Source: Candidatus Woesearchaeota archaeon
Lineage (GTDB): Archaea > Nanobdellota > Nanobdellia > Woesearchaeales > ARS49
Reading direction: 5' to 3'
Length of the DNA: 64,000 bases
NCBI GenBank assembly: GCA_030750765.1
Contig: JASMHM010000006.1
Span: 1-64,000, forward strand
The notes below the pieces were generated by a model. It saw only the letters and a program-made list of their open reading frames with translations. It ran no database searches and was not told the origin of the DNA. Below, piece by piece: positions 7,185 through 7,435 of this stretch; the first letter of the stretch is position 1, and the number at the start of each line of letters is the position of its first letter. A program made the translations under genes and the position numbers.

Positions 7185-7242
7185 CCGTAAGATTTCCGAA
7201 AAATCCAGAAGAACCTACGGGACATGGACGCGTATCGCTTTG

Positions 7243-7257
7243 AAAAAAGAAAAAAAA
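7243..7257 (-). terminator. T-rich terminator after tRNA-Phe
   Basis: Immediately after the discriminator base, the minus strand runs into two T tracts (8 and 6 T) separated by one C. T tracts are the usual archaeal intrinsic termination signal. There is no hairpin. Confidence 0.55.
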
Positions 7258-7258
7258 G

Positions 7259-7353
7259 TGGGACGAGGGAGATTTGAATACGGGGGATCTTTCGATCCTC
7301 TCCCGACACCACGATCTTCAGTCGTGTGCTCTCCCAGGCTGAGCTACCGTCCC
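7259..7353 (-). tRNA. tRNA-Phe (GAA) with a 21-nt intron in the T arm
   Basis: Acceptor arm GGGACGG (7353-7347) pairs with TCGTCCC (7266-7260), and A73 is at 7259; CCA is not encoded. The D arm is GCTC/GAGC. The anticodon arm is CACGA-CTGAAGA-TCGTG with anticodon GAA at 7319-7317. The T stem GGGAG (7304-7300) pairs with CTCCC (7271-7267) around loop TTCAAAT only if 7299-7279 is removed. That insert forms a strict bulge-helix-bulge: helix CGGG/CCCG (7305-7302 with 7284-7281) lies between 3-nt bulges AGA and TAT, and a GGATC-GAAA-GATCC hairpin caps it. Cutting after the second base of each bulge excises exactly 21 nt, between positions 53 and 54. There is no anticodon-loop intron. The mature tRNA is 74 nt. 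Confidence 0.92.
7279..7299 (-). other. tRNA intron, position 53/54 (21 nt)
   Basis: The intron runs from A7299 to A7279 on the minus strand. It contains a 5-bp stem with a GAAA tetraloop and the CCCG strand that pairs with the 5' exon. The cut sites AG^A and TA^T are where a splicing endonuclease would act on a canonical bulge-helix-bulge. Confidence 0.85.
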
Positions 7354-7383
7354 ATTGTCGGAGATTAATAGCTCGTTGGCTAC

Positions 7384-7391
7384 TTTATAAA
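7384..7391 (-). promoter_or_regulatory. TATA box of tRNA-Phe
   Basis: TTTATAAA on the minus strand, within GGTTTATAAAGT, lies about 34 nt before the first base of the tRNA. It predicts a short 5' leader that RNase P would remove. Confidence 0.7.
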
Positions 7392-7435
7392 CCTTTACAA
7401 ATAGTTGAGAAAGAAAAAAAGTAAAGAAAAAAGAA

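Follow-up and report, generated by a model that had tools for sequence, protein, structure and literature searches.

Position 53/54, in the T arm, already stands in the published list of noncanonical intron sites in archaeal tRNAs, a list rich in Crenarchaeota and Nanoarchaeota (PMC4090602), and noncanonical introns have been described outside the Crenarchaeota in Nanoarchaeum equitans, ARMAN, Thaumarchaeota and Asgard archaea (PMC4033280, PMC8450103, PMC11291895). According to reviews, splicing endonucleases of the α4 and α′2 types cut only the canonical bulge-helix-bulge (BHB) motif, relaxed motifs being tied to the (αβ)2 and ε2 types, and a loop bearing a lysine accompanies relaxed-motif cleavage in the crenarchaeal and ARMAN enzymes (PMC4033280, PMC6379350, PMC12397907). 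We found no literature on tRNA introns of Woesearchaeota among open-licence papers; others may exist.

Within the window, the whole 64,000-nt stretch of a Candidatus Woesearchaeota archaeon genome analyzed here, we identified a tRNA-Phe(GAA) gene, belonging to the Woesearchaeota order (DPANN), that is very probably functional and apparently present in one copy; a BHB-type intron interrupts it at the noncanonical position 53/54 and is very probably removed by splicing (Table 1). It shares with the known 53/54 BHB introns the site, the 3-nt bulges around a 4-bp helix, and the building of that helix from a 5′ exon strand and the 3′ part of the intron (PMC4090602). It differs from them in its setting, the Woesearchaeota order, and in the accompanying enzyme, a single α-type EndA without the crenarchaeal loop. 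ARMAN-1 and ARMAN-2 likewise belong to DPANN and carry introns at varied tRNA positions (PMC4033280, PMC12397907), but their ε2 enzyme consists of three fused units, whereas the enzyme found here is one unit of about 171 amino acids lacking the ARMAN-specific loop. The Asgard Atabeyarchaeia and Freyarchaeia also have introns that are often noncanonical, outside the Crenarchaeota; introns interrupt 92–95% of their tRNA genes (PMC11291895), against 8 of about 41 in the window's genome.

Table 1. Features of the tRNA-Phe(GAA) locus and its predicted BHB motif (window coordinates)
Feature	Coordinates	Strand	Basis and remarks
tRNA-Phe(GAA) gene with intron, 95 nt	7259..7353	minus	Rfam RF00005 match; cloverleaf once intron removed
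tRNA-Phe exons	7353-7300 + 7278-7259	minus	Discriminator A at 7259; CCA not encoded
21-nt intron AGGATCGAAAGATCCCCCGTA at tRNA position 53/54	7279..7299	minus	Unique register; same site and length in G001 (L104); empty site in G005 (L044)
Central helix, 5′ strand CGGG, positions 48-51	7302..7305	minus	Pairs with intron CCCG at 7284-7281
Central helix, 3′ strand CCCG, inside intron	7281..7284	minus	Pairs with CGGG at 7302-7305
5′ bulge AGA	7299..7301	minus	Geometry; predicted cut after second base
3′ bulge UAU	7278..7280	minus	Predicted cut after second base; exon-side helix beyond is unformed (U47 faces U55)
Intron hairpin GGAUC-GAAA-GAUCC, 5 bp, GNRA loop	7285..7298	minus	Pairing geometry
BRE/TATA-like box AAAGGTTTATAAAG	7383..7396	minus	About 30 nt upstream of tRNA-Phe; coordinates counted by eye
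T-rich terminator-like stretch CTTTTTTTTCTTTTTTCA	7241..7258	minus	Directly 3′ of tRNA-Phe; similar stretch in G001

The Rfam tRNA model covers the gene over its full length at 40.7 bits (E 3.5e-5; the gathering score is 29), and this is the sole Rfam match within the window. ARAGORN called no tRNA in the window and missed the gene, a limit of the tool that does not count against the gene. Removing the insert yields, as originally predicted, a standard 74-nt cloverleaf with the T stem GGGAG/CTCCC and the loop TTCAAAT, and every other tRNA element is intact. Ahead of the gene on the same strand lie genes for a replication-factor-C-like AAA protein, a class II (probably glycyl-) tRNA synthetase and a small OB-fold protein.

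The motif had been described as a strict BHB in which the 5′ T-stem strand itself pairs with the intron. That pairing is present, with all four central pairs formed, and strictness holds for the two 3-nt bulges, which are in register, and for the 5-bp inner helix provided by the intron hairpin. It does not extend to the exon-side flanking helix, which has 0 contiguous pairs; beyond a U-U mismatch, at best the pairs G46-C56 and U45-A57 can be read by eye. A 4-bp central helix together with at least four inner pairs arises in the 95-nt precursor for a single pair of cut sites, those whose use restores the tRNA. When the 21 intron bases were shuffled, such helices appeared at these cut sites at a rate of 5.5e-5. 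In the predicted minimum-energy fold of the precursor, the 3′ strand of the T arm is mispaired with the D-loop region, so that folding alone does not establish a cloverleaf-like precursor.

Conservation in relatives is stronger evidence than the shuffle rate that the insert at 53/54 is a real intron. In a genome of the same genus, Ca. Woesearchaeota archaeon ARS49 (G001; NYZT01000003.1, matched by identical sequence), a 21-nt intron, CCGGTCGAGAGGCCGCCCGAA, occupies this site between identical T-arm exons. Its hairpin reads CGGUC-GAGA-GGCCG and keeps all inner pairs; relative to the window gene, both bases are changed in two pairs and a single base in a third (counted by eye). The TATA-like string upstream is identical in the two genes, and the ARS49 gene carries an additional anticodon-loop intron that the window gene lacks. 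Another genome of the same family (G005) has a near-identical intronless tRNA-Phe, GTCGGGAGTTCAAATCTCCC, which presents the empty site with a standard T arm.

These comparisons bear on two other explanations of the insert. Were the gene a pseudogene or relic, the real copy would lie elsewhere or in an assembly gap, and the window's genome (G000) does consist of 16 contigs at 98.7% estimated completeness and also yielded no tRNA-Thr(GGU) or tRNA-Ser(GGA). We nevertheless regard this as very improbable: the tRNA elements outside the insert are intact, the second species preserves the position and length of the insert with compensatory changes, the promoter-like box is shared by the two species, and a second tRNA-Phe, which the original prediction had named as grounds for calling this copy a pseudogene, was absent from the 41 tRNA matches at E ≤ 10 in the whole genome. 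Slightly more remote still is a stable expansion retained in the mature tRNA. In its favour, the insert folds into a 5-bp hairpin and also forms pairs with CGGG, but keeping it blocks the normal T stem and loop, it sits in BHB register, and the empty-site homologue forms a standard T arm. The insert thus has, by sequence, what marks predicted archaeal BHB introns at noncanonical positions: its removal restores the tRNA, the bulges and 4-bp helix are in place, and an endonuclease and RtcB are encoded in the genome.

For the spliced intron we propose the following pathway. In the precursor, the intron's CCCG would hold CGGG, which consists of position 48 plus the T stem's first three bases, and the GNRA-capped hairpin would stack inside the central helix. 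EndA would then cut after AG and after UA, RtcB would join the exons, and the T arm would form only upon joining. We infer that cleavage and ligation would fall to EndA and RtcB; the latter is encoded once in the window's genome, by a gene scoring 546 bits.

The EndA gene is likewise single. The original prediction had implied a heteromeric endonuclease, but searches of the window's genome with Pfam and with a profile of 8 sequences at E ≤ 10 each gave a single gene and detected no β subunit, and the window's genome and 19 relatives, 20 in all, have exactly one Pfam EndA match each. The protein, whose GTG start codon we picked from the alignment, is a single domain of which residues 5-171 align colinearly to 5-171 of the M. 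jannaschii α4 enzyme (1a79). Its active-site residues Y107, H117 and K148 and the bulge-binding R141, with roles assigned by comparison with ARMAN-2 numbering, are invariant in 8 sequences. Between YG(T) and L-S-EA, the stretch in which ARMAN-2 K161 lies, its alignment shows no long insertion corresponding to the crenarchaeal or ARMAN specific loop and no lysine. Typing by the second bulge-recognition residue (Arg or Trp) was dropped, as the alignment did not fix the position.

From these features we infer that EndA is probably a homotetramer of the α4 type. A heteromer whose β subunit is too divergent for detection is unlikely given the single genes found by both searches and across all 20 genomes, though it would accord with the closest relatives of the α subunit, which include the N. 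equitans catalytic subunit (3iey), known to work with a partner, and with a motif relaxed on one side. Lacking an exon-side flanking helix, the motif does not match the form reportedly required by α4 and α′2 enzymes (PMC4033280, PMC6379350). If the enzyme is a plain α4, Woesearchaeota EndA would either tolerate the absent outer helix or manage with the two offset pairs.

A survey of the order, with a search pattern designed for tRNA-Phe genes whose D arm and anticodon stem are uninterrupted, recovered at least 141 tRNA-Phe copies from 140 genomes. The 53/54 intron occurs in at least six genomes, G000 and G001 in one family and G178, G188, G189 and G193 in another. Among the latter four, two introns form all four central pairs and two (G188 and G189) form three of four, and none of the six introns has a contiguous exon-side pair. 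Introns on the 3′ side of the T loop are commoner: at least 22 copies were automatically classed with an intron at 58-60, and some seven more near 59/60 were added by eye, about 29 among the at least 141 copies. Here the invariant T loop gives half of the central helix. Both types thus lie in the T arm and draw an exon strand into the central helix, but at 59/60 the outer helix is supplied by the T stem, which allows a fully flanked motif, something that is impossible at 53/54. In several T-loop introns the inner helix is weak or absent. In other tRNA-Phe copies, introns interrupt the anticodon loop or the variable region. The T arm of one gene in G193 (L207) apparently holds two introns, one at 53/54 and the other on the T-loop 3′ side, and in three other genes (L100, L101 and L118) an intron of 31-45 nt that contains a long hairpin apparently breaks the 5′ acceptor strand after position 4.

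The expectation that such an intron would be unusual for an archaeon of this kind was not borne out, as T-arm introns are common in tRNA-Phe of the order and occur in three genes of this genome. The window intron is accordingly an ordinary representative of a local class. Introns of this class appear to have entered T arms repeatedly in the order, and the presence of the 53/54 intron in two families with many intronless relatives between them suggests more than one gain.

Elsewhere in the window's genome, anticodon-loop introns occur in tRNA-Tyr, tRNA-Ser(UGA), tRNA-Arg(UCU) and a putative tRNA-Ile(UAU). The last (L014, C16:7675-7770) is a probable gene with a 21-nt intron; a UAU anticodon would be an unusual archaeal means of reading AUA. 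At 59/60, tRNA-Lys(UUU) (L272, C12 from 11227, plus strand) has a 15-nt T-loop intron, ATCGAAAGACGAACA, whose central helix has 4 bp and whose outer helix is the T stem; the intron hides the gene, which falls under the Rfam cut-off. A 28-nt T-loop intron with a complete BHB lies at the same position in tRNA-Ala(UGC) (L039, C8 from 145093, plus strand), where the Rfam match ends before the true 3′ end. The D loop of tRNA-Val(UAC) (L033, C9:222564-222664), which ARAGORN miscalls as Ala, holds a further 28-nt intron with a complete BHB. Genes for tRNA-Thr(GGU) and tRNA-Ser(GGA) were absent from the whole-genome tRNA matches, and pattern searches for them gave nothing convincing; splitting, heavy interruption or gaps in the assembly could each account for this.

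Genes of this kind are missed or scored too low in these genomes by general tRNA finders, by ARAGORN in the case of tRNA-Phe and by the Rfam cut-off in that of tRNA-Lys, and the tRNA counts of such genomes can therefore come out low. With these introns, a large uncultured archaeal order joins the groups known to have noncanonical tRNA introns. The mismatch between a motif relaxed on one side and an apparently plain α EndA is the interesting part, if modestly so. Since its enzyme resembles a small, single α subunit, the order is well suited to testing cleanly whether the range of substrates tracks endonuclease architecture. It is possible, if somewhat short of probable, that a plain single-α EndA removes one-sided BHB introns from T arms and that such introns have spread through the Woesearchaeota order. 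If so, the order would break the rule that links noncanonical or relaxed BHB introns to (αβ)2 or ε2 endonucleases with the lysine loop.
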